From Bacteroidetes bacterium 43-93 (GTDB lineage Bacteria; Bacteroidota; Bacteroidia; Chitinophagales; Chitinophagaceae): DNA of 64,000 nucleotides. A program made the translations under genes and the position numbers. Under the pieces are notes generated by a model. That model was given only the letters and a program-made list of their open reading frames with translations. It was not told the DNA's origin and ran no database searches. Shown one piece after another: positions 40,534 through 59,228 of the stretch (its first letter is position 1; each line of letters starts with the position of its first letter). The stretch is taken from contig MKUO01000018.1 of NCBI GenBank assembly GCA_001897855.1, forward strand, positions 289,463-353,462. The letters run 5' to 3'.

Positions 40534-42261
40534 TTATCGTTCTACTATGCAGTTCTCCAGCACCAGCATATCCATGCGTGTACGCAAAAAACAGTCTAAT
40601 GCCTCTGCCGGTGTATTTACTATTGGTTCGTTCTCGTTAAACGATGTATTCAGCAATATAGGCACACCTGTCTTCTTTCTGAAGGCATCTATTAGTCCAT
40701 AGTATCTTGGAGATACTTCTTTATCTACGCTTTGCAACCTGCCTGTTCCATCTACGTGTGTTACAGCAGGTATCTCTGCATGTTTTTCTTTTTTTATCGG
40801 GAATACCTTCTCCATAAATGGCACATTCTCCGTCCGTTCAAAATATTCAGGTACATATTCCCTTAATATGGATGGAGCAAATGGTCGAAAGCTTTCGCGT
40901 CGTTTGATCTTAGCATTAAGCAAATCCTTCGCGTCTGTCCTGCGTGGATCCGCCAATATAGAACGTCCACCCAGTGCACGCGGCCCAAATTCTGCTCTTC
41001 CCTGGAACCATCCTATCACACCTGCATTTACCAGTTTGTCTGATACATAATCATACAATTGCGCATCTTCAAGTCGTTTATAATTTATATCCCTGCTTTT
41101 CAAAAATTCCTCTATCTGCTCATTGCTGAATTTGCTGCCTGTATATGCCGAATAAATAGGCTTAGCTCGTGGCATATCCAGCAATTGGTTATACACATAA
41201 TAGGCAGCACCCATAGAGATACCCGCATCATGCCCTGCTGATGGTATATACAACTCTTCAAATCCAGAATTGGCCAGTATCTTACCATTTGCTACCGAGT
41301 TTTGCGCTACACCACCGGCAACACATAAATTCTTTAATCCTGTTCGTTTTTGCAGATGGTTGACTATATGAAATATAAGTTCTTCTGTAAATCGCTGTAC
41401 GGAAGCTGCAATGTCTTTATGATATTGTGTCAGTTCATCTTCTTTTTTCCTTGCAGGGCCAAACTTCTCTTCCATATAAGACGTAAACAAAGTACCTACA
41501 ACCGGTATATGATCATCACCATAAGTAACTACTACATCTTTGGCCGATTTGAAATACTTTGGATTCCAATCGAACAATCCGTTATCGGTAAACCTGATTA
41601 CATCTCTAAGCTTATCTACATATTTAGGTTCGCCATAAGGGGCAAGGCCCATTACTTTGTATTCATCACCATAATGCGGAAAGCCAAGGAATTGCGTAAA
41701 CGATGTGTAGAAGGTACCGACAGAAACGGGGAAATCTACGGAGTCTAATACTTCTATTTTATTCCCCTTGCCACGGCCTATCATCGTAGTGGTGAAGTCT
41801 CCTGATCCGTCTATAGACAATAAAGCAGCTTCGTCAAACGGACTCGCAAAGAATGCAGAGGCAAGGTGGCTTCTATGATGCTCCACCTGGTGTATTTTAG
41901 GTTTGATCTTATCAGTATCAACGCCTGACATACGAGAAAATTCCTGCTCCAGCGATGCAACTTTTTTGTTGTTGCTCAACCTGTTTAATACAGTCTTTAC
42001 ACCGCCTTGCGGGTTCTTTAGCAGGTACAGCATTTTCTTATCCAGTTTAGCCTTAGGGTCTCTTCCTATCGCTATATGGTCTACCTGGTCCAGGGTGATG
42101 CCTAATTCATCCAAACAAAACTGTATCGCTTTTTCAGGGAAACCTGCCCAGTGCTTCACACGGGTAAATCGCTCTTCTTCTGATGCGGCTATTAACACAC
42201 CATCTTTTAATATAGCAGCGCTAGAGTCCGCATGGTATGCATTAATACCTAAGATTATCAT
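40534..42261 (-). CDS. NodU/CmcH-family carbamoyltransferase
   Basis: 575 residues, full length. The N-terminal Kae1-like domain has the metal-binding INAYHADSSAA and VEHHRSHLASAFFASPF (His residues) and ALLSIDGSGD. The C-terminal carbamoyltransferase domain has QGRAEFGPRALGGRSILADPR. The enzyme makes carbamoyl-adenylate from carbamoyl phosphate and ATP and transfers the carbamoyl to a hydroxyl, as NodU does on Nod factors. In this cluster the acceptor should be a sugar of the repeat unit. Confidence 0.92.
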   Translation of the reverse strand: MIILGINAYHADSSAAILKDGVLIAASEEERFTRVKHWAGFPEKAIQFCLDELGITLDQVDHIAIGRDPKAKLDKKMLYLLKNPQGGVKTVLNRLSNNKKVASLEQEFSRMSGVDTDKIKPKIHQVEHHRSHLASAFFASPFDEAALLSIDGSGDFTTTMIGRGKGNKIEVLDSVDFPVSVGTFYTSFTQFLGFPHYGDEYKVMGLAPYGEPKYVDKLRDVIRFTDNGLFDWNPKYFKSAKDVVVTYGDDHIPVVGTLFTSYMEEKFGPARKKEDELTQYHKDIAASVQRFTEELIFHIVNHLQKRTGLKNLCVAGGVAQNSVANGKILANSGFEELYIPSAGHDAGISMGAAYYVYNQLLDMPRAKPIYSAYTGSKFSNEQIEEFLKSRDINYKRLEDAQLYDYVSDKLVNAGVIGWFQGRAEFGPRALGGRSILADPRRTDAKDLLNAKIKRRESFRPFAPSILREYVPEYFERTENVPFMEKVFPIKKEKHAEIPAVTHVDGTGRLQSVDKEVSPRYYGLIDAFRKKTGVPILLNTSFNENEPIVNTPAEALDCFLRTRMDMLVLENCIVER

Positions 42262-50658: not shown

Positions 50659-51765
50659 TTATGATTTGTAAAAAGCTGCTATAGTTTCAGCTACGTATGC
50701 TATATGCTCTTCTGTAAGCTCAGGATACATAGGCAGCGATAATATTGTTTCCTGGTATGCAGATGCAACAGGAAAATCTTTAGATGTATATCCCAGGTAA
50801 GAATATGCTTTTAATAATGGAAGTATCACGGGATAATGTAATGCTGTCTCTATACCCTGCTCTCTGAGATGTGCCATCAATGCGTCTCGGTTCGCAGCCC
50901 TTATCATGTATACATGGTAGGTATGTTTGCTATCAGGCCTCACCTGTGGCAATACTATTTCTTTAATACCTCCTAAGTGCTTCGCATACAATGCGGCATT
51001 ATGGATACGCTGTTCTGTCCATTGAAGTATATGCGGCAGCTTTGCAGATAATATTGCAGCCTGCAATCCATCCATGCGGCTATTAATGCCTTCTATCTCG
51101 TGCTTATGCTTGGTCAGCGAGCCATGATTTGCGTACATGCGGCATTTGGTGGCCAGTTCATCATCATTAGTGATAATACACCCCGCATCTCCATACGCAC
51201 CTAAATTCTTTCCGGGGTAGAAACTAAAGCTGGCTGCAATACCGGTTAACCCTGCACGTATGCCCTTATACTCACTAAAGTGCGATTGTGCGCAATCTTC
51301 TATTAGGTAGATACCTTTTTGCCTGCAAATATTTTGTATCGCCTCCACATCTGCTATCTGCCCCTGCAGGTGTACTAATATGACGGCTTTTGTATTGGAA
51401 GTTATCGCTCTTTCAAGCAATGTTTCATCCATACTATAATAGTCAGGATGAATATCTACAAATACCGGTGTGGCACCGGCTTGTGTGATGGTCTCTGAGC
51501 TCGATATCCAGCTGTTTGCAACGGTTATTACTTCATCACCTTGCCCAATACCCAGCATCTTCATCAATATATATAAGCTGTCGGTACCGTTAGCACAGGC
51601 GATCACATGTTTCACTCCGTACAACTCAGCAAACTGCTGCTCAAAAGCTTTTACATATTTACCACCTATAAAAGCTGTATTCTCTATTACTTCCTGTATT
51701 GCTCTATCTATCTCTGGCTTTATATCCTGGTATTGCTTCTTCAGATCTACAAAAGGGACATTCAT
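50659..51765 (-). CDS. DegT/DnrJ/EryC1 aminotransferase, WbpE/WlbC-like
   Basis: 368 residues. PLP lysine in SFYPGKNLGAYGDAG, cofactor-contacting Asp in LIEDCAQSH, N-terminus MNVPFVDLKKQY. In the Wbp pathway WbpE aminates UDP-3-keto-GlcNAc uronate at C3. The neighbours are an oxidoreductase (WbpB-like) and an N-acetyltransferase (WbpD-like), so the three would convert UDP-GlcNAcA to UDP-2,3-diacetamido-2,3-dideoxy-glucuronate. QdtB/FdtB-type C3 aminotransferases are close relatives, so the pathway call depends on context. Confidence 0.85.
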   Translation of the reverse strand: MNVPFVDLKKQYQDIKPEIDRAIQEVIENTAFIGGKYVKAFEQQFAELYGVKHVIACANGTDSLYILMKMLGIGQGDEVITVANSWISSSETITQAGATPVFVDIHPDYYSMDETLLERAITSNTKAVILVHLQGQIADVEAIQNICRQKGIYLIEDCAQSHFSEYKGIRAGLTGIAASFSFYPGKNLGAYGDAGCIITNDDELATKCRMYANHGSLTKHKHEIEGINSRMDGLQAAILSAKLPHILQWTEQRIHNAALYAKHLGGIKEIVLPQVRPDSKHTYHVYMIRAANRDALMAHLREQGIETALHYPVILPLLKAYSYLGYTSKDFPVASAYQETILSLPMYPELTEEHIAYVAETIAAFYKS

Positions 51766-51770
51766 TCTTC

Positions 51771-52235
51771 TTACAGACTTTTTATTTTCTTAGCCGGGTT
51801 ACCTGCATATACGCCGGGCTCTGTTATATTTTTTGTAACCACTGCGCCTGCGCCTACTACTACATGGTCACATATATTTACAGGAAGTATTGTTGCGTTT
51901 GACCCTATAGACACGTGGTTGCCGATACGTGTTTCCTTCCACAAACTCTTATCACCTCTTGCTGGTCCGCCTTTAGCAAACAGGTCGTTGATGAACATAA
52001 CGCCATGACCAATAAAACAATCATCGCCAATGGTCACTAGCTCACATATAAAACTATGCGACTGCAGCTTTGTTCGTTTACCGATCACTACATCTTTCTG
52101 TATTTCTGTAAAAGGCCCGATGAAACAGTCGTCATCAATACGACAGCCGTATATATTTACGGGCTCTACTACCTTCACGTTTTCACCGAAGGCTACATCA
52201 ACTATTTTGCAGGATAGTATCTTAGGTTCGCCCAT
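51771..52235 (-). CDS. Hexapeptide-repeat N-acetyltransferase, WbpD/WlbB-like
   Basis: 154 residues, a short left-handed beta helix. It has YGCRIDDDCFIGPFTEIQ, IGDDCFIGHGVMFIND (expected active-site region), and a C-terminal GAGAVVTKNITEPGVYAGNPAKKI. It should acetylate the 3-amine introduced by the aminotransferase, with acetyl-CoA as donor. It is 5 bp from the aminotransferase gene, and its start overlaps the stop of the oxidoreductase gene. Confidence 0.85.
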   Translation of the reverse strand: MGEPKILSCKIVDVAFGENVKVVEPVNIYGCRIDDDCFIGPFTEIQKDVVIGKRTKLQSHSFICELVTIGDDCFIGHGVMFINDLFAKGGPARGDKSLWKETRIGNHVSIGSNATILPVNICDHVVVGAGAVVTKNITEPGVYAGNPAKKIKSL

Positions 52236-53254
52236 TATTTAATATCCTTTGCCGCTGAATATATTTTATCAATTATCTCCACCGTCTTTAATCCTTCAAA
52301 CGCGCTCGTAGATATGCTGGCATTGTTGGTGAGCACGTCTATCAGGTTCTCATATACCTTGTCATGGTTAGACATCGAACCCTGGTAGTTGCCATAGTTA
52401 TTGGCTTTATTACCTTCCGGTAGGTTATCTATCTTATAGTTTTCAATATTCTGGTATTCCAGTTCGTTTAAATACTGGCCACCTATCTTTACCGTACCTT
52501 TTTCTGCAAATATGGTGAGAGATCCTTCCATATTCTTCTCATAGCTATTCACCGTATAGTTCACCGTACCAATTGCCCCATTGTAAAACGACAATATCGC
52601 TACGCCGGTATCTTCAAATTCTATAGTATCCTGGTGAGCATAGTTACCTGTAAAAGCCTCCACACTTTTTACATCCCCTATCATCCAGTACAGTAAGTCT
52701 ATAAAATGTGAGAACTGCGTGTACAATGTACCACCATCCAGATCTTTTGTGCCCTTCCACGAATTTTCATAGTAGTCTTTATTCCTGTTCCAGAAACAAC
52801 TTAACTGTACGCTATATATCTTGCCCAAACGCCCTTCATCAATTGCCTGTTTCACAGCAGCTACCGGCGGATTAAAACGGTTTTGTTTAATAGCGAACAG
52901 TCTTTTGTTTACCTGCTCTGCCGTTTTAATCATCTCCCCGCAATCATACACACTTGTAGCCATAGGCTTTTCACACAGCACATGGAATCCTGCCTTCAAA
53001 GACTGGATAGAATGTGTTGCGTGTAATCCGTTCGGCGAGCAAATAGACACCACATCTACATCCTTTGCATTTTTCAAAAGGTCTTCGATATTGTAAAACG
53101 CCTTTGCATTATATTTTTCAGCAAGTGTATCAGCCTTTTCTTTTACAATATCACAAACAGCCACAAGTGTTCCCTGTTTGTTTATGTGCTCGGCATGTCG
53201 TTGCGCAATGCGGCCACAGCCTACTATTGCAAAACGAATGTTGCTTTTATTCAT
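52235..53254 (-). CDS. Gfo/Idh/MocA-family dehydrogenase, WbpB/WlbA-like
   Basis: 339 residues from MNKSNIRFAIVGCGRIA (an ATG three codons upstream would overlap the HisF-like gene). The N-terminal Rossmann domain has GCGRIAQRH and the conserved EKPMA. The C-terminal domain has KQNRFNPPVAAVKQAI, typical of UDP-GlcNAcA 3-dehydrogenases of the WbpB/WlbA group, and DGGTLYTQFSHFIDLLYWM with the catalytic His. It would oxidise C3 of UDP-GlcNAc uronate with NAD. The 6-dehydrogenase (WbpA) that makes the substrate is not in the window. Confidence 0.88.
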   Translation of the reverse strand: MNKSNIRFAIVGCGRIAQRHAEHINKQGTLVAVCDIVKEKADTLAEKYNAKAFYNIEDLLKNAKDVDVVSICSPNGLHATHSIQSLKAGFHVLCEKPMATSVYDCGEMIKTAEQVNKRLFAIKQNRFNPPVAAVKQAIDEGRLGKIYSVQLSCFWNRNKDYYENSWKGTKDLDGGTLYTQFSHFIDLLYWMIGDVKSVEAFTGNYAHQDTIEFEDTGVAILSFYNGAIGTVNYTVNSYEKNMEGSLTIFAEKGTVKIGGQYLNELEYQNIENYKIDNLPEGNKANNYGNYQGSMSNHDKVYENLIDVLTNNASISTSAFEGLKTVEIIDKIYSAAKDIK

Positions 53255-53255
53255 T

Positions 53256-54005
53256 TTATACAATTATTTTTTTACCGGTAGGAAAGCTTATCAATACTCC
53301 CATACCTTTTTTTTGAAAAACAAACATGCTGCCTGCAGCCACTGCGGATGCACCCGCTTTGGCAGCTTTTTCCAGGTCATCAAAGCTTCCGGCACCACCA
53401 CACGCTATTACAGGAACAGAAACCTTGTGCGATATCTCACCTATTAAATCCAATGCAAAGCCACCCCAGGTGCCATCCCGTTCTATACTGTTGATCATTA
53501 TTTCTCCCACACCGGCCTGTTCCAGTTTTGCAGCCCATTCAACCGGTGCATACCCTGTCTTTTTTTTGCCGGATTGTGCATACACTTTGTTCCTGCCCAG
53601 CAGGTCTTTCTTAACATCTATGCTACCAACAACGGCCTGAGAGCCATATACGGCAGCGATCTTATCTATCAACGAAATGTCATCGAACAAAACGGTGTTA
53701 AGGACCACTTTCTCATATCCGCAATCAAATACTTTCTTAGCTATATCCCAGCTTTTAATACCCCCGCCATAAGCCATCGGCATAAAAGCTTCCCCTGCTA
53801 TTTCAGATATCTTATTATAATCCGGTTCTCTTCCCTCTACCGATGCCTGGTAGTCAAGCAACAACAATTCATCAGCCTCTTTCTCATTAAATATCCTTAC
53901 AGCATTTATAGGGTCACCTACATACACAGGATTTTTGAAATTCACTGTTTTGTACAGCCCCGATTTGTGCAGCAAAAGAGTAGGTATTATACGGATCTCA
54001 GCCAT
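53256..54005 (-). CDS. HisF-like acetamidino-modification synthase subunit
   Basis: 249 residues, a TIM barrel related to imidazole glycerol phosphate synthase HisF. The first catalytic Asp of true HisF (PCLDV) is replaced: the sequence reads IIPTLLLHKSGLYKTV. This is typical of the second HisF type found with WbpG proteins in O-antigen clusters. The second Asp is kept in VGSIDVKKD. With WbpG and a HisH glutaminase it is thought to channel ammonia to convert an N-acetyl into an acetamidino group. No HisH gene is present in the window. Confidence 0.88.
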   Translation of the reverse strand: MAEIRIIPTLLLHKSGLYKTVNFKNPVYVGDPINAVRIFNEKEADELLLLDYQASVEGREPDYNKISEIAGEAFMPMAYGGGIKSWDIAKKVFDCGYEKVVLNTVLFDDISLIDKIAAVYGSQAVVGSIDVKKDLLGRNKVYAQSGKKKTGYAPVEWAAKLEQAGVGEIMINSIERDGTWGGFALDLIGEISHKVSVPVIACGGAGSFDDLEKAAKAGASAVAAGSMFVFQKKGMGVLISFPTGKKIIV

Positions 54006-55150
54006 TATTTTGCCGGGAAAATGGTACGGTATATTTTTTTGAAGGGTTTCAATAGCGGGTAACGTTTATCTATTGGCATTTCGTAGTCAAAATCATAATG
54101 ACTACGTGGCGGCTTAGCCATTATTTCCTTAAACTCCTGTTCAGATAATCCTAATTTCTTCAGTACAAAGTCATAATCCTGCCTGAACTGCTCGGGATCA
54201 TACATTGGTTTTGCCAGTTCTGCCAGCGCCTCTTCTTTAGTCATCTGGCCACCAAATATCAGATCGCTCAGGTGAGCCTTTCGTTTATCTATTTTAAATT
54301 TCTCCGGAAGAATATATCCCTGGTAAAAGCGGGTCCAGATGCTTTCATAGTGTTTACCCCCATAATCGCGCCAACCTAACTTCTCCTGTATTAGTTTTTT
54401 GACCTCTTTCTTGTTGTAAGGAAGGTTATTCAGAACAGATATGGAATGTACACCCTTTACCTGCTGATAATAACGTTTCACCTTGGCATCCATAAAAGGA
54501 AAAGTTTTCAAAGGCACCGTTCCAAAGGCCTTATGGATAGACTGTATATTTATATGATCGCTCTTGGGATGTATCCAGGTTTTGGGAAGCGTAGTTTCAG
54601 TTTGCACGTTCGTGCCACTGAGAATGTATTTAATATTATTCTTCCCTGCCAGCCTATACAGTGTAGCAAATATTGCATGGTCAGTGATCGCCTCAATATC
54701 TACAACAGATGCTTTCAGGTATGCTATCTGCAGGTCTTTAAATTCTTCCCAATTAATTACATAGGTGGAAAGGTCGAAGCCTAATTTACTTACTATGTTC
54801 TCGATATTCTTTACCGCCAGCTCACTGTTCCAGCCATTATCAAAATGTATTGCCAATGGTCTTAATCCAAGGCGGTGGGCAGTATATGCAACATAAGTGC
54901 TATCAACACCACCACTCACTCCCATAATGCAATTATATTGTTTACCCTTCCCCTCTTCTTTTATTTTTGCAGCAAGCGCCTGCAGTATCCGTTCTCCTTC
55001 TGCATCTTCATGCACATTCTCGGCATAGGCTTTTTTAAATTCATAGTAGTAGTTACAAATGCCTTGCTCATCGAAAGCGATATTCGGATCGGCTATCGTG
55101 TCCATTACCGAAATGCTGCATTGACGATATGAATTACCCGGTGTTTCCAT
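54005..55150 (-). CDS. N-acetyl sugar amidotransferase (WbpG-like, PP-loop family)
   Basis: 381 residues. The PP-loop ATP-pyrophosphatase motif SGGVDS (79-84) activates the N-acetyl carbonyl for amidation. FDNGWNSELAVKNIE and LSGTNVQTE are family motifs. In P. aeruginosa the WbpG/HisH/HisF set makes the amidino group of an O-antigen diamino-uronic acid. The N-terminal zinc region is degraded: the expected CxxC pairs read C11-S-I-S14 and C32-N-Y-Y35. It overlaps the HisF-like gene by one base, and its product should act with it. Confidence 0.88.
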   Translation of the reverse strand: METPGNSYRQCSISVMDTIADPNIAFDEQGICNYYYEFKKAYAENVHEDAEGERILQALAAKIKEEGKGKQYNCIMGVSGGVDSTYVAYTAHRLGLRPLAIHFDNGWNSELAVKNIENIVSKLGFDLSTYVINWEEFKDLQIAYLKASVVDIEAITDHAIFATLYRLAGKNNIKYILSGTNVQTETTLPKTWIHPKSDHINIQSIHKAFGTVPLKTFPFMDAKVKRYYQQVKGVHSISVLNNLPYNKKEVKKLIQEKLGWRDYGGKHYESIWTRFYQGYILPEKFKIDKRKAHLSDLIFGGQMTKEEALAELAKPMYDPEQFRQDYDFVLKKLGLSEQEFKEIMAKPPRSHYDFDYEMPIDKRYPLLKPFKKIYRTIFPAK

Positions 55151-55167: not shown

Positions 55168-55842
55168 TCAGGCAAATTTTTTCAGATATTTTCTTTTATA
55201 CTTTTCAAAATCAGAAGACCTGATATAACCATTATATTCATGCTCATTACGATACCTTACAAATTTCTCCATTATCGAAGGGTTATCGCTATAATCTGCA
55301 ATGATCTCTGCCGGGTTACCCCCAATTACACAATACCCTTTCGGAAAACTCTTCGTAACTACCGAACCGGATGATACCGTTGTAAAATCGCCAAGTACTA
55401 CTCCTGCGTTAATGATAGAACCCATTCCTATTCTACAGTATTTCCCAATTCTCACCTCACTTTCAATATGCTTCCTGATATCCAGCATAAAGTGATTAGA
55501 GCTTATGATACCTACATTGGGTGCAATCTGCGTGTAGTCATCTATAACTATTTTACCTACAGCTTGTATATAGCATCCGGGTGATATGCCGGGTGCCGCA
55601 TCTATACCCACGTATATATTATTAGGGAACCGAACGGTAGAAGTGAAATGCACCGGCCAATAACAGTGCTTATTATGGCCCAAAACTTTTTGCCGATACC
55701 AGGTCTTAAAGTCTACAGGGCTCTCATTGTCCTTTGTATAGTAGATAGGCCTTAAAAAAGGCACTATCCTGCAAACAGCATAGAATATGTCTTCAAAGAT
55801 AAACTTATACAACCGTGCATATATCCTTTTAACGATATTCAT
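55168..55842 (-). CDS. Hexapeptide-repeat acyltransferase (sugar O-/N-acyltransferase)
   Basis: 224 residues: an N-terminal region of about 75 residues with YFKFIFED-like hydrophobic helix content, then a left-handed beta helix with IYVGIDAAPGISPGCYIQ, IAPNVGIISSNHFML (candidate catalytic His) and SVVTKSFPKGYCVIGGNPAEII. It lies 2 bp after the acyl carrier protein gene. It could be the transferase that moves the carrier-bound acyl or aminoacyl group to the sugar, or an ordinary acetyltransferase. Substrate unknown. Confidence 0.8.
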   Translation of the reverse strand: MNIVKRIYARLYKFIFEDIFYAVCRIVPFLRPIYYTKDNESPVDFKTWYRQKVLGHNKHCYWPVHFTSTVRFPNNIYVGIDAAPGISPGCYIQAVGKIVIDDYTQIAPNVGIISSNHFMLDIRKHIESEVRIGKYCRIGMGSIINAGVVLGDFTTVSSGSVVTKSFPKGYCVIGGNPAEIIADYSDNPSIMEKFVRYRNEHEYNGYIRSSDFEKYKRKYLKKFA

Positions 55843-55844
55843 CT

Positions 55845-56084
55845 CTAAGCCTTGTTGCTTATAACAGTTGCGAGGTCACCAATATTTTGTGCATTTAGAA
55901 TATCATCAAGCTCAAACTTCATGTTGAAATTTTTCTCCAACTCGTCTATCAAAAAGAGGTTGCTAATAGAATCCCAACCATCTACATCTTTGGCAGTAGT
56001 ATCTTCTGTTACGGTCAGGCTTTCATTTCTAAATACTCGCTGGCAGATTTTATTGATCTCTTGCAGTACTAAACTTTTATCCAT
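55845..56084 (-). CDS. Acyl/peptidyl carrier protein
   Basis: 79 residues from MDKSLVLQEI; an ATG three codons upstream overlaps the previous stop. This four-helix carrier has the phosphopantetheine attachment serine in GWDSISNLFLIDELE (Ser39). It must be activated by a phosphopantetheinyl transferase encoded elsewhere. It lies between the GNAT gene and the hexapeptide acyltransferase and close to the adenylation enzyme, so it probably carries the amino acid activated by that enzyme and is not the fatty-acid ACP. Confidence 0.9.
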   Translation of the reverse strand: MDKSLVLQEINKICQRVFRNESLTVTEDTTAKDVDGWDSISNLFLIDELEKNFNMKFELDDILNAQNIGDLATVISNKA

Positions 56085-56089
56085 TCTGG

Positions 56090-56833
56090 TCAATTAAAAT
56101 TATAAAATAAGATCAGGCTATTGTGTGGTGTATACCCTATAGATCTATATAATGGCACACCTGCCTGTGTTGCATGCAGACAAACTTCCCTATAGCCTGC
56201 GTTGTAGATAAGTTTCTCTGCCTCATACATCATGACTCTGCCATACCCCTTTTTCTGATGTGCAGGTTCTGTGGCAACCATATAAATACCGGCCTCACTA
56301 CCGCAGAATACCATAATAGTAGATACCGGCATACCGGCGTGTTTGCCCAGCAATAATATAAATTTACCTTCTCCCACAGCATTCATAAATATCTCCCGAG
56401 GTAGGGAGCTACCCTTAAATAGCACATTGCGGGCAACAGCCAGCCATTCGTCTACTTGATCAGCACTCTTACAAACTGAAATATCAAGATCTACATACCC
56501 TCGGGTATTCTCTTCATTTGTCAGCAGTTTGCTCATGTTATGCCATTTAGCAACCGGCATAAATCTTTTTTCTTTCAACAATAATTGCTGTTCTGCCGTT
56601 ATATTATCCTCAACGATCAAGGTTTTACAACTATTTCCCTCAAGCGATATTTTTAAATGCTGCAGTTCTACTTCAGAAAAAATTATTGTAGGAGCATACA
56701 CCATAGACGGCCATTCATTACCTATACTGGTAATGATGTTAAATGGACCAACGTCTGAGGTATTTACCTGTGGGTACCCGGCAAGATAATCATACAGATC
56801 AAACAGATTTTTTACAATAGTACTATTCTCCAT
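56090..56833 (-). CDS. GNAT-family acyltransferase
   Basis: About 247 residues from MENSTIVKNLF; the longer ATG at 56845 overlaps the adenylation gene. The C-terminal half is a GNAT domain with the acyl-CoA pyrophosphate loop EPAHQKKGYGRVMMYEA and the final strand LYRSIGYTP. The N-terminal half may be a second, degenerate GNAT fold. Such proteins can acetylate an amino group or, with a carrier protein, transfer the carrier-bound acyl group. Its position between the adenylation enzyme and the carrier protein points to the second job, as an inference. Confidence 0.8.
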   Translation of the reverse strand: MENSTIVKNLFDLYDYLAGYPQVNTSDVGPFNIITSIGNEWPSMVYAPTIIFSEVELQHLKISLEGNSCKTLIVEDNITAEQQLLLKEKRFMPVAKWHNMSKLLTNEENTRGYVDLDISVCKSADQVDEWLAVARNVLFKGSSLPREIFMNAVGEGKFILLLGKHAGMPVSTIMVFCGSEAGIYMVATEPAHQKKGYGRVMMYEAEKLIYNAGYREVCLHATQAGVPLYRSIGYTPHNSLILFYNFN

Positions 56834-56837
56834 ATCC

Positions 56838-58337
56838 CTACACAAGCTCTTTCAGTGCAACCCTATCTACTTTGTTGCTATTGTTAATAGGGAAGGATTC
56901 CATATTCTTTACCAAATGCGGTAGCATATAATAAGGCAATACCTTTTTTAATGTATCACTTAGCGCATCCACATCTTCACAGTTTTCAAGAAACAAGCAT
57001 ATTTTATCTATTCCATCCTTGTCTTTATAAAGAGTAGCAACATTATTAATTGCATACAACTTTCTTACGGCAGCCTCTATCTCTCCAAGCTCTATTCTAT
57101 GACCATTCACCTTTACCTGGTAATCCATCCTCCCACAGTAATACAGATCTCCTTCTTCATCCCAATAACACAAGTCCCCTGTTTTATAGTACAATTCGCC
57201 ATTGACATTTATAAAACTTTCGGCGTTTTTCTCTGCATTGTTAAGATAGCCTGCAGTAACCTGTTTGCCTGCAACGCAAAGCTGACCTTTGACGCTACCT
57301 GTAACTACAGTACTATTCTCATCAATTATTATTGCCTTTACCTGCAACAACGGCTTACCAATAGCCATCATTTCGTTATAGGACTTTGGCGCAGACGGAT
57401 CAAACTTATATACAGTACACCAAATAGTCGCTTCTGTAGGGCCATATAGATTATATATCTCGGCATTCGGCACACAAGGTTTCCACTTTTGTATATCTGC
57501 AACGTTGGATGCTTCTGCCGTTAAAATGCAATATTTAACAGCAGGCAGTTCTATCCTGTCAAAATAAGGCTTCAAATAGGTAATAATGGAAGGAACCAGG
57601 CAAGCAAAACTTATTTGCTTATCCCTCAAAATCTTCAGCACGTTAATATATTTGATGCCCTCGGAAGAAACTGTATAGGTACATGCACCATATACCAAAG
57701 GCACCACAAAACTGGCTATCGATACATCAAAGGTAAACTCAAACATTTGCAGAAACTTATCTGCTGCTTTTATCTCAAATCCTAATGCATCAAATGAAGT
57801 GATGAATGCGTCCAGGTTTTCGTAGCAGATGGGCACACCCTTTGGCACCCCTGTACTACCCGATGTAAAAAGTATGTACAGTAGTGTTTGCTCGTCTATA
57901 TTTTGTGTTAGGTTTAAGGAACCAGCTACAGACACATTAATAGCGTCCACATCAATTGCTCTTAATGTTTCGTAACCCTCAACAACATCTCCTGTACAAT
58001 TGATCAAAAGTGCCGCTTCCGCGTTTTTCAGTATAGTATTATTTCTCTCAAGAGGTAAATACCTGTTTATCGGCACATATGCTTTACCGCTAAACCAGCA
58101 AGCCAATATTGTTGCATAAGTGTAAATACTGTTTGCTACAACAATACCGACAGTATCCCGTGTTGGGGAATCAGCATTTATTAGAGGTAAAATCTTACTT
58201 ACAAGTTCGTTCAGCTGCGCATATGTATAATATTCATTGTTGATGCAAAAAGCATTACGTGTTCTATTTTCCTGAATAGAATGATACAACCTGGAAATAA
58301 AACCAACATTACTCATCTTAATACTTTTTTCTTTCAA
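56838..58337 (-). CDS. Stand-alone amino-acid adenylation enzyme (AMP-binding, DltA/NRPS A-domain type)
   Basis: 499 residues, full length for one A domain. Core motifs are A3 FTSGSTGVPKG (157-167), FDVS (203-206), A5 NLYGPTEATIW (296-306), A7 YKTGD (384-388), A8 GRMDYQVKVNGHRIELGEIE (402-421) and the A10 lysine in NKVDRVAL (K489). Asp204 fits the Asp that holds the alpha-amino group of amino-acid substrates. The enzyme should activate an amino acid with ATP and load it onto the nearby carrier protein. No condensation or thioesterase domain is present. Specificity is not predictable by eye; D-Ala, Gly or Ser are examples only. A second Met (58316) is an alternative start. Confidence 0.88.
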   Translation of the reverse strand: MKEKSIKMSNVGFISRLYHSIQENRTRNAFCINNEYYTYAQLNELVSKILPLINADSPTRDTVGIVVANSIYTYATILACWFSGKAYVPINRYLPLERNNTILKNAEAALLINCTGDVVEGYETLRAIDVDAINVSVAGSLNLTQNIDEQTLLYILFTSGSTGVPKGVPICYENLDAFITSFDALGFEIKAADKFLQMFEFTFDVSIASFVVPLVYGACTYTVSSEGIKYINVLKILRDKQISFACLVPSIITYLKPYFDRIELPAVKYCILTAEASNVADIQKWKPCVPNAEIYNLYGPTEATIWCTVYKFDPSAPKSYNEMMAIGKPLLQVKAIIIDENSTVVTGSVKGQLCVAGKQVTAGYLNNAEKNAESFINVNGELYYKTGDLCYWDEEGDLYYCGRMDYQVKVNGHRIELGEIEAAVRKLYAINNVATLYKDKDGIDKICLFLENCEDVDALSDTLKKVLPYYMLPHLVKNMESFPINNSNKVDRVALKELV

Positions 58338-58367: not shown

Positions 58368-59228
58368 TTATCTAAGGCCCTTGCTGTTTTTAATATGATT
58401 TAGCAACAACAGTATGTGTTCTTTGACAACGTCATACCTTAATCGCAACGCATAAAAAACAATTCGCTTAATAGTAGCTTTTTTGTTGCCGGATAAAATT
58501 CGGACAACTTCCGATCGCTCAAGCGGGCAATCAGGAGAAAGCAGATATTTAAACTTAATATCTGAGTAAGTAACCGCAAATTTTTTGCGGCTGTTAACTT
58601 CCTGCTCATCGTGTTCTCTATACCATACAATGCCATCCGGCATTAACAATACAGGATTCTTTTGCGCAAGTCTATGCCACATATCAAAATCACCTACCAT
58701 CCTTATCTTTGAAAACCCACCAACCCGGTCAAAAACATCTTTTCTTATAATAGATGATAAAGGCGCTTTATGAAAAAGCCCGGGGCCATCGTAATTATAC
58801 TCATACGCTTCTTTAGGTGATAGCAACAAGGGAAATGGTTGCCTGATATCCTGGATTAATGAGCATAACCCCCAACCTGCATCAGGATTAGCCTCCATCA
58901 TCGATACTAAAACCTGTAAGCCATGCGGGTATATGTAATCGTCAGAATCAACATACTTCAAATATTTACCGCTTGCCAGTGACGCAGCTCTATTTCTGTT
59001 AGGATAATCGCCAAGATTCTTTTCGTTAACAAAAAACTTAATCCGTTTATCTTTAGCTGCATAGCTTTGGGCTATCTCTACGGTTTTGTCGGTCGAGCCA
59101 TCATCAACTATGACTAGTTCAAAATTCACGTATGTTGAGGCAAGGACACTTTCTATCGCATTTGCAATGTATTTTTCTCTACAATACGATGTCATTAATA
59201 CACTAACAAGTGGTGCATTAGAGGTCAT
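58368..59228 (-). CDS. GT2-family glycosyltransferase
   Basis: 286 residues of the GT-A fold. It has SVLMTSYCREKYIANAIESV, VIVDDGSTD, the DxD-like YVDSDD metal site and MVGDFDMWHRLA. The inverting enzyme acts on the cytoplasmic face with an NDP-sugar. Its start overlaps the stop of the preceding GT4 gene (4 bp). Donor unknown. Confidence 0.9.
   Translation of the reverse strand: MTSNAPLVSVLMTSYCREKYIANAIESVLASTYVNFELVIVDDGSTDKTVEIAQSYAAKDKRIKFFVNEKNLGDYPNRNRAASLASGKYLKYVDSDDYIYPHGLQVLVSMMEANPDAGWGLCSLIQDIRQPFPLLLSPKEAYEYNYDGPGLFHKAPLSSIIRKDVFDRVGGFSKIRMVGDFDMWHRLAQKNPVLLMPDGIVWYREHDEQEVNSRKKFAVTYSDIKFKYLLSPDCPLERSEVVRILSGNKKATIKRIVFYALRLRYDVVKEHILLLLNHIKNSKGLR

Follow-up and report, generated by a model that had tools for sequence, protein, structure and literature searches.

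An adenylation-GNAT-carrier gene block with a hexapeptide transferase in a Bacteroidota polysaccharide cluster, a candidate cassette for carrier-dependent glycan acylation

Analysis of the window (the whole 64,000-nucleotide stretch of DNA studied here) showed four contiguous head-to-tail genes on the minus strand, at 55168-58337, inside a polysaccharide cluster. The genes encode a stand-alone amino-acid adenylation enzyme (A), a GNAT protein, a carrier protein (ACP), and a hexapeptide acyltransferase (Hex1). The system would be a new form of carrier-dependent glycan acylation, and the combination of A-GNAT-ACP with a hexapeptide transferase was undescribed among the literature matches listed, as judged by titles and abstract openings. 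We give an even chance to the reading that the block is a carrier-protein cassette that would attach an amino acid to a surface-polysaccharide sugar without a condensation domain. For the reactions, the amino acid and the acceptor, we infer the following: A would adenylate an amino acid and load it on the 4'-phosphopantetheine arm of ACP, GNAT would use acetyl-CoA to acetylate the free amine, most likely while the amino acid is still on the carrier, and Hex1 would move the N-acetyl-aminoacyl group from ACP to a sugar amine or hydroxyl.

Genomic features of the block

The four-gene contiguous block had been claimed in an earlier sequence-only reading, and all four ORFs were found as claimed. 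The features of the block and of its surroundings are shown in Table 1. The longest ORFs of the block have a TTG start, and the ATG codons listed for A, GNAT, and ACP are the likelier true starts. From its ATG, A is equal in length to the ORF of the related locus L003, and the ATG of GNAT lies 4 bases past the A stop. The dN/dS values against the L003 copy were 0.083 for A, 0.242 for GNAT, 0.030 for ACP, and 0.018 for Hex1 (dS >1, near saturation), and the block genes are under purifying selection. Two family-model searches of 10 proteins each (the block and scanned neighbours) found no condensation domain and no MBOAT, and the four block proteins thus lack the condensation domain that marks a nonribosomal peptide synthetase module.

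Table 1. Positions of the block genes and of neighbouring cluster genes in the window
Feature	Positions	Strand	Remarks
A, stand-alone amino-acid adenylation enzyme	56838..58337	-	499 aa; likelier ATG 58316, giving 492 aa
GNAT, two-lobed GCN5-related acyltransferase	56090..56845	-	likelier ATG 56833; QKKGYG CoA-type motif
ACP, carrier protein, attachment Ser42	55845..56093	-	likelier ATG 56084; best solved relative 2lml
Hex1, left-handed beta-helix (hexapeptide) acyltransferase, proposed terminal transferase	55168..55842	-	Hexapep score
GT58, family-2 glycosyltransferase directly upstream of A	58368..59228	-	
WbuX-type N-acetyl sugar amidotransferase, perhaps same sugar	54005..55150	-	TIGR03573 283.4 bits, cut-off 203.2
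AglZ/HisF2-type acetamidino modification protein	53256..54005	-	NF038364 338.9 bits, cut-off 310
Gfo/Idh oxidoreductase, hexapeptide acetyltransferase, DegT aminotransferase; probable amino-sugar pathway	50659..53263	-	

Adenylation enzyme and carrier protein

A matched the AMP-binding model with an E-value of 1.1e-52 and scored 319.5 bits against TIGR01733 (amino-acid adenylation), a narrow pass of the curated cut-off of 317.4 (320.2 bits in the genome search). The motifs TSGSTGVPKG, YGPTE, YKTGD, and GHRIELGEIE and the residue K489 are present, and D204 stands at the amino-group Asp position; we take D204 to be the amino-group Asp and K489 to be the A10 Lys. Both residues are kept in 16 of 16 A homologues. 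The single A domain with core motifs and Asp204 that had been claimed was therefore confirmed, with the family cut-off passed narrowly. Against the DltA equivalog model, A scored 261.9 bits, under the cut-off of 559.85. The only other frame of the genome that passed TIGR01733 was one of 1325 aa near a phosphopantetheinyl transferase, and the genome has two phosphopantetheinyl transferases (PF01648).

The pocket residues of A read D V A C I T L I W K. The last four letters are shared with glycine and cysteine codes, and naming the substrate from the code was rejected because this likeness is too weak; we know of no code that matches all ten residues. A small amino acid is our guess from the pocket. 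Given the Asp and Lys kept in all 16 homologues, activation of a fatty or aryl acid is unlikely. A wider alternative, in which the acid that A loads on ACP is not an amino acid but a hydroxy, fatty, or aryl acid, and GNAT acts on the sugar, would make the block a variant of the carrier-borne fatty-acyl decoration proposed for Flavobacterium psychrophilum. The unmatched code would suit it, and ACP-based amino-sugar acylation has been proposed in a Bacteroidota O-antigen in passages of PMC6519341, but the two conserved residues, the amino-acid adenylation score (narrowly over its cut-off), and an alanine racemase in the related operon of Segatella copri argue against it, and we hold this alternative to be quite improbable.

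The intact carrier serine, the GNAT, and the hexapeptide acyltransferase of the sequence-only reading were all recovered, with Pfam scores of 22.7 bits for ACP (PP-binding, cut-off 20.8), 33 bits for GNAT (Acetyltransf_7, cut-off 27), and 34 bits for Hex1 (Hexapep, cut-off 27). All 8 aligned carriers have the attachment serine S42. The nearest solved chain to ACP was 2lml (profile E 2.6e-22; next chain 1.6e-7), which is GmACP3, a carrier of Geobacter with a putative role in lipopolysaccharide.

GNAT protein

The predicted model of GNAT was fairly confident (pLDDT 82), and its best PDB match was 4ius (E 9.8e-14). The Foldseek matches include WecD and mycothiol synthase (2c27, E 2.8e-9), an enzyme that acetylates an aminoacyl-amino-sugar. 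The same list also holds the aminoacyl-tRNA-using transferases Sba18/Sbb17, MprF, and FemX, so that the fold is no proof of acetyl transfer. Tyr233 is invariant in 8 of 8 aligned GNATs, and the R/Q-x-x-G core of the CoA-binding motif is present in 12 of 14, of which set 8 GNATs carry G/A as the sixth residue (8 of 14).

These matches bear on a second alternative, in which GNAT is itself the aminoacyltransferase that moves the amino acid from ACP to a sugar amine, and Hex1 is a separate O- or N-acetyltransferase that goes with GT58 and the amidination genes. The tRNA-dependent transferases of the GNAT fold take their amino acid from aminoacyl-tRNA. The locus L038 (174-9360) has two A-GNAT pairs with one ACP (A-GNAT-A-GNAT-ACP, then genes for a FabG-like reductase, an acyl ligase, and LuxE- and LuxC-like proteins, which may make a reduced aminoacyl product), and L037 (4518-10848) has four GNATs with one ACP (A-GNAT-GNAT-FkbH-ACP-GNAT-GNAT), as if there were one transferase for each acyl group. 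Simple capping does not explain several GNATs for one ACP, and both loci count against it. On the other side, the CoA-binding core is kept in most of the GNATs, and other loci have an MBOAT, an unnamed protein, or an AAC(3)-type enzyme that can serve for the transfer. This alternative is unlikely in our judgement, though still to be reckoned with.

We keep to N-acetylation, which by comparison is the best reading of this step. GNAT looks like a tailoring enzyme, since another candidate transferase remains where no GNAT was found (the unnamed protein in L039, the AAC(3)-type enzyme in L067). By analogy with mycothiol synthase, GNAT could also act after the transfer to the sugar. The GNAT family was rejected as a marker when taken alone: at a profile E of 1e-15, 18 other genomes gave 19 loci, each of only about 3.6 kb, with no A or ACP match beside the GNAT, and the family by itself is thus not diagnostic.

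Hexapeptide acyltransferase and surrounding cluster

The His of the SNH motif of Hex1, presumably the catalytic residue, is kept in 13 of 13 aligned homologues. The top scores of Hex1 were obtained with O-acetyltransferase models (maltose O-acetyltransferase, 54.4 bits; WbbJ, 47.6 bits), and NeuD/PglB/VioB gave 36.5 bits, all far under the cut-offs. By score, Hex1 appears more like an O-acyltransferase, and an ester linkage is as possible as an amide. The amino sugar proposed earlier as the acceptor was thus not established; the N-acetyl-aminoacyl groups cited below are carried by amino sugars.

A number of Hex1 loci lie outside A blocks (L054-L063, L068, and L075; n=12), and 11 of the 12 gave no ACP match, ACP being present in L054 only. 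In L042, a GT58-like enzyme stands in front of the block, and in L055, L056, and L075 one stands in front of Hex1 alone; WbuX follows Hex1 in L054 and follows Hex1-HisH-HisF in L075. Because Hex1 without ACP stands before HisH-HisF-WbuX in L075 and L068, the window Hex1 may go with the amidination genes, and A-GNAT-ACP may simply lie between GT58 and this Hex1. This arrangement, like the Hex1 that follows a GT58-like enzyme without ACP, favours the separate acetyltransferase of the alternative given above, but Hex1 directly follows ACP in three A-GNAT-ACP-Hex1 blocks (the window, L003, and L042) and in the FkbH-ACP-Hex1 run. The genome that carries L042 and L075 (G108) has two Hex1 copies, and the copy adjacent to ACP groups with the window Hex1, apart from the copy without ACP (bootstrap 77), which suits a Hex1 that travels with ACP. 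The support for the ACP-linked Hex1 groups was weak to moderate (0.71 in one tree; 66 and 77 in another).

Relatives of Hex1 were also seen upstream of HisH, HisF, and WbuX in L068 (8980-13077, NZ_CP139692.1, Limimaricola variabilis; 41%) and in L075 (2-6549; 53%), an order from which Hex1 and amidination may act on one sugar. No HisH lies beside the WbuX and HisF genes of the window (53256-55150), whereas L075 has one. The genome has two HisH genes over the cut-off elsewhere (C7:147282-147887 and C11:41639-42202), one of which perhaps serves the WbuX/HisF pathway. The cluster also contains a NodU-like carbamoyltransferase at 40534-42261 (150 bits against the NodU model, far under the cut-off). 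Past the window, the cluster continues with the remainder of an ABC-transporter gene, and further genes there were taken for GDP-fucose genes, as judged from their first residues.

Conservation of the block

The genomes searched were samples. Besides the window, 14 A loci were compared: L003-L009 (n=7), found with six short peptides of the window protein, a search that reaches near relatives; L037-L041 (n=5), from a search that gave at least 6 of 395 genomes (own included) with 3 candidates scored per genome; L042, found with the GNAT query; and L067 of S. copri. At most 7 candidates were scored in one further genome search.

The block is complete and in the same order in two loci, L003 (A 70%, GNAT 57%, ACP 85%, Hex1 93%), where the cluster is largely syntenic, and L042 (A 40%, GNAT 25%, ACP 38%, Hex1 61% by BLAST). 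A check on the claim, whether the four genes fail to occur together in relatives, thus found them together in both loci, though absent from most genomes of the family. Of the 147 genomes of the family, 2 gave GNAT, one of them the own genome, and the one same-genus genome listed did not; the four-gene block is accessory. A (69%) and GNAT (57%) diverge from the syntenic L003 more than Hex1, WbuX, WbuZ, and Gfo do (92-98%), with an identical A pocket code, and the three genes upstream of the block differ as much as or more than A and GNAT (51-67%).

ACP lies beside A in 13 of the 14 other loci, none having been found beside A in L009. Among these 13 loci with both genes, GNAT stands between A and ACP in 9 (8 of 12 without L042) and directly after ACP in 2 (L040 and L041), and no GNAT was found in L039 or L067. 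The ACPs of L040 and L041 were not detected by BLAST alone, and the one in L040 was recognised by eye in a single frame. Not every count is independent, since the A proteins of L006 and L008 stand at 82% and those of the window and L003 at 69%. The genome of the window has 30 GNAT matches (PF00583) in 3.99 Mb, which would be about 1% of genes at ordinary gene density; with GNATs this rare and yet between A and ACP in 9 of 13 loci, the A-GNAT-ACP order is conserved beyond chance.

The Hex1 gene of L042 lies 357 bases from a contig end. Another contig of the same genome, L075, starts with a GT58-like gene, the second Hex1 without ACP, HisH, HisF, WbuX, Gfo (76%), a small hexapeptide enzyme (73%), and DegT (64%), which is the same amidination pathway as that of the window. 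The use of L042 as a block in a cluster free of amidination genes was rejected, as its downstream part is cut by the contig end and the contig end of L075 carries that pathway; the two contig ends may be neighbours.

A third alternative holds that A-GNAT-ACP is unrelated to the glycan, making a small N-acetyl-aminoacyl product or serving some other target, and is merely located in the cluster. The A-GNAT-ACP sets of L005, L006, and L008, each with the unnamed protein, lie outside any evident polysaccharide cluster, as this alternative would have it. Against it, the window, L003, L042, L040, L067, and probably L039 have their A-ACP sets amid genes for glycosyltransferases, flippases, or polymerases, and we regard it as very improbable.

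Exchange of partners in related loci

The last gene of the related loci varies and encodes Hex1, an MBOAT, an AAC(3)-type enzyme, or an unnamed protein. An MBOAT lies downstream of A-GNAT-ACP in L004 and L007, over the Pfam cut-off but with 160.4 and 156.4 bits against a DltB cut-off of 375; the gene before it encodes, in L004, a 483-aa protein with an SGNH match under the threshold and, in L007, a 298-aa protein that gave no match. The earlier statement that condensation domain and MBOAT are absent thus holds for the scanned block and its neighbours, but a DltB-like MBOAT accompanies A-GNAT-ACP in these two distant relatives. The unnamed protein (363-381 aa, no Pfam match over the cut-off) follows A-GNAT-ACP in L005, L006, and L008, and could be a new transferase family; its structure prediction (pLDDT 50) was left unused. 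Members of this family (363-383 aa) were seen beside A and ACP at 12532-13629 in L005, 12760-13905 in L006, 8085-9176 in L008, and 8007-9158 in L039.

An AAC(3)-type enzyme (PF02522), by family an aminoglycoside N-acyltransferase, follows A-ACP-GNAT in L040 (126.2 bits) and L041 (127.2 bits), and the L040 run adjoins flippase and pyruvyltransferase genes. Both runs (L040, 7790-11603; L041, 165-3350) have a cytidylyltransferase-like gene nearby and may link an amino acid to a sialic-acid-like sugar, and their GNAT may, like PseH, act on a sugar nucleotide. The locus L067 (8938-12836, NZ_CP085933.1, Segatella copri DSM 18205, a human gut bacterium) has the order A-ACP-AAC(3)-alanine racemase among glycosyltransferase, flippase, polymerase, and aminoethylphosphonate genes, and looks like D-alanylation of an amino sugar.

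In L054, the order FkbH-ACP-Hex1 (51%)-WbuX (55%) has FkbH (PF21211, 204.5 bits) in place of A and GNAT. FkbH charges carriers with a glycerate-derived acyl group that has no amine. This replacement assigns A and GNAT to acyl supply and Hex1 to transfer. Across the compared loci, A and FkbH would supply the acyl group and the last gene would transfer it, and GNAT appears mainly to accompany A, that is, where the carried acyl group has an amine, L037 being not clear-cut. The plasmid matches H17 and H16 were rejected, as they look like other pathways, and H9 (A, a 292-aa protein without a Pfam match over the cut-off, and ACP, near a condensation-domain gene) was left aside.

The conserved A-GNAT-ACP order and the partner swaps support the condensation-free thiotemplate route of the sequence-only reading. 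More tentatively, and with somewhat less than an even chance, the loci would form a Bacteroidota plug-in family in which a swappable acyl supply, ACP, and one of several transferases give new surface epitopes. The supply parts would be A with GNAT (N-acetyl-aminoacyl-ACP), FkbH (glycerate-derived acyl-ACP), and A with alanine racemase, and the transferases would be of the hexapeptide, MBOAT, AAC(3)-like, and unnamed families. If true, such a family would explain how the N-acetyl-aminoacyl groups of bacterial polysaccharides can be made.

Comparison with known systems

N-acetyl-glycyl, -seryl, -threonyl, and -aspartyl amino sugars occur in O-antigens, according to passages of PMC10609480. A carrier-based pathway for these groups was not found among the literature matches listed, as judged by titles and abstract openings, and the block would be a concrete gene set for such a pathway. 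It also points to modular change of surface epitopes, with acyl-supply enzymes and transferases exchanged around a carrier. The Escherichia coli O114 cluster, whose sugar carries N-acetyl-seryl, is discussed in passages of PMC2905691; the term "acyl carrier" occurs 0 times in the text of that paper, which was counted against the block model. Passages of PMC2905691, PMC7403468, and PMC4732683 gave no carrier-protein annotation for E. coli O114/O121.

Lincosamide synthetase (PMC4351081) resembles the block in forming an amide bond between an amino acid and an amino sugar with nonribosomal peptide synthetase parts, and differs in making small-molecule antibiotics with other condensing proteins. 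The N-acylation of Qui4N in the Flavobacterium psychrophilum O-antigen (wfp genes) is closer in having a dedicated O-antigen ACP that feeds a PglD-like acyltransferase in a member of the Bacteroidota, which is a prediction in the relevant passages of PMC6519341. There the acyl group is predicted to come from ketosynthases and a reductase, whereas here it would come from an amino-acid adenylation enzyme and perhaps a GNAT.

The A-ACP-AAC(3) operons (L067, and with GNAT L040 and L041) share a related A (37% for S. copri; 28-30% for the other two) and ACP, and L067 and L040 lie in polysaccharide clusters, as the window block does. They differ in that the AAC(3)-type enzyme replaces Hex1 and that the amino acid of S. 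copri is likely to be D-alanine; the literature searched gave no study of these operons. The FkbH-ACP acyl supply units share, in L054, the downstream half of the window block, and differ in that FkbH charges a glycerate-derived acyl group and not an amino acid, and in the lack of a GNAT in L054; a literature search on FkbH and glyceryl groups found nothing. The Dlt system (D-alanylation in Gram-positive bacteria) is alike in its stand-alone A and carrier, in having no condensation domain, and in transferring an amino acid to a cell-surface glycan, and the relatives L004 and L007 are also alike in their DltB-like MBOAT. The window block differs from Dlt in having Hex1 where Dlt has an MBOAT, in its extra GNAT, and in an A that lies far under the DltA cut-off.
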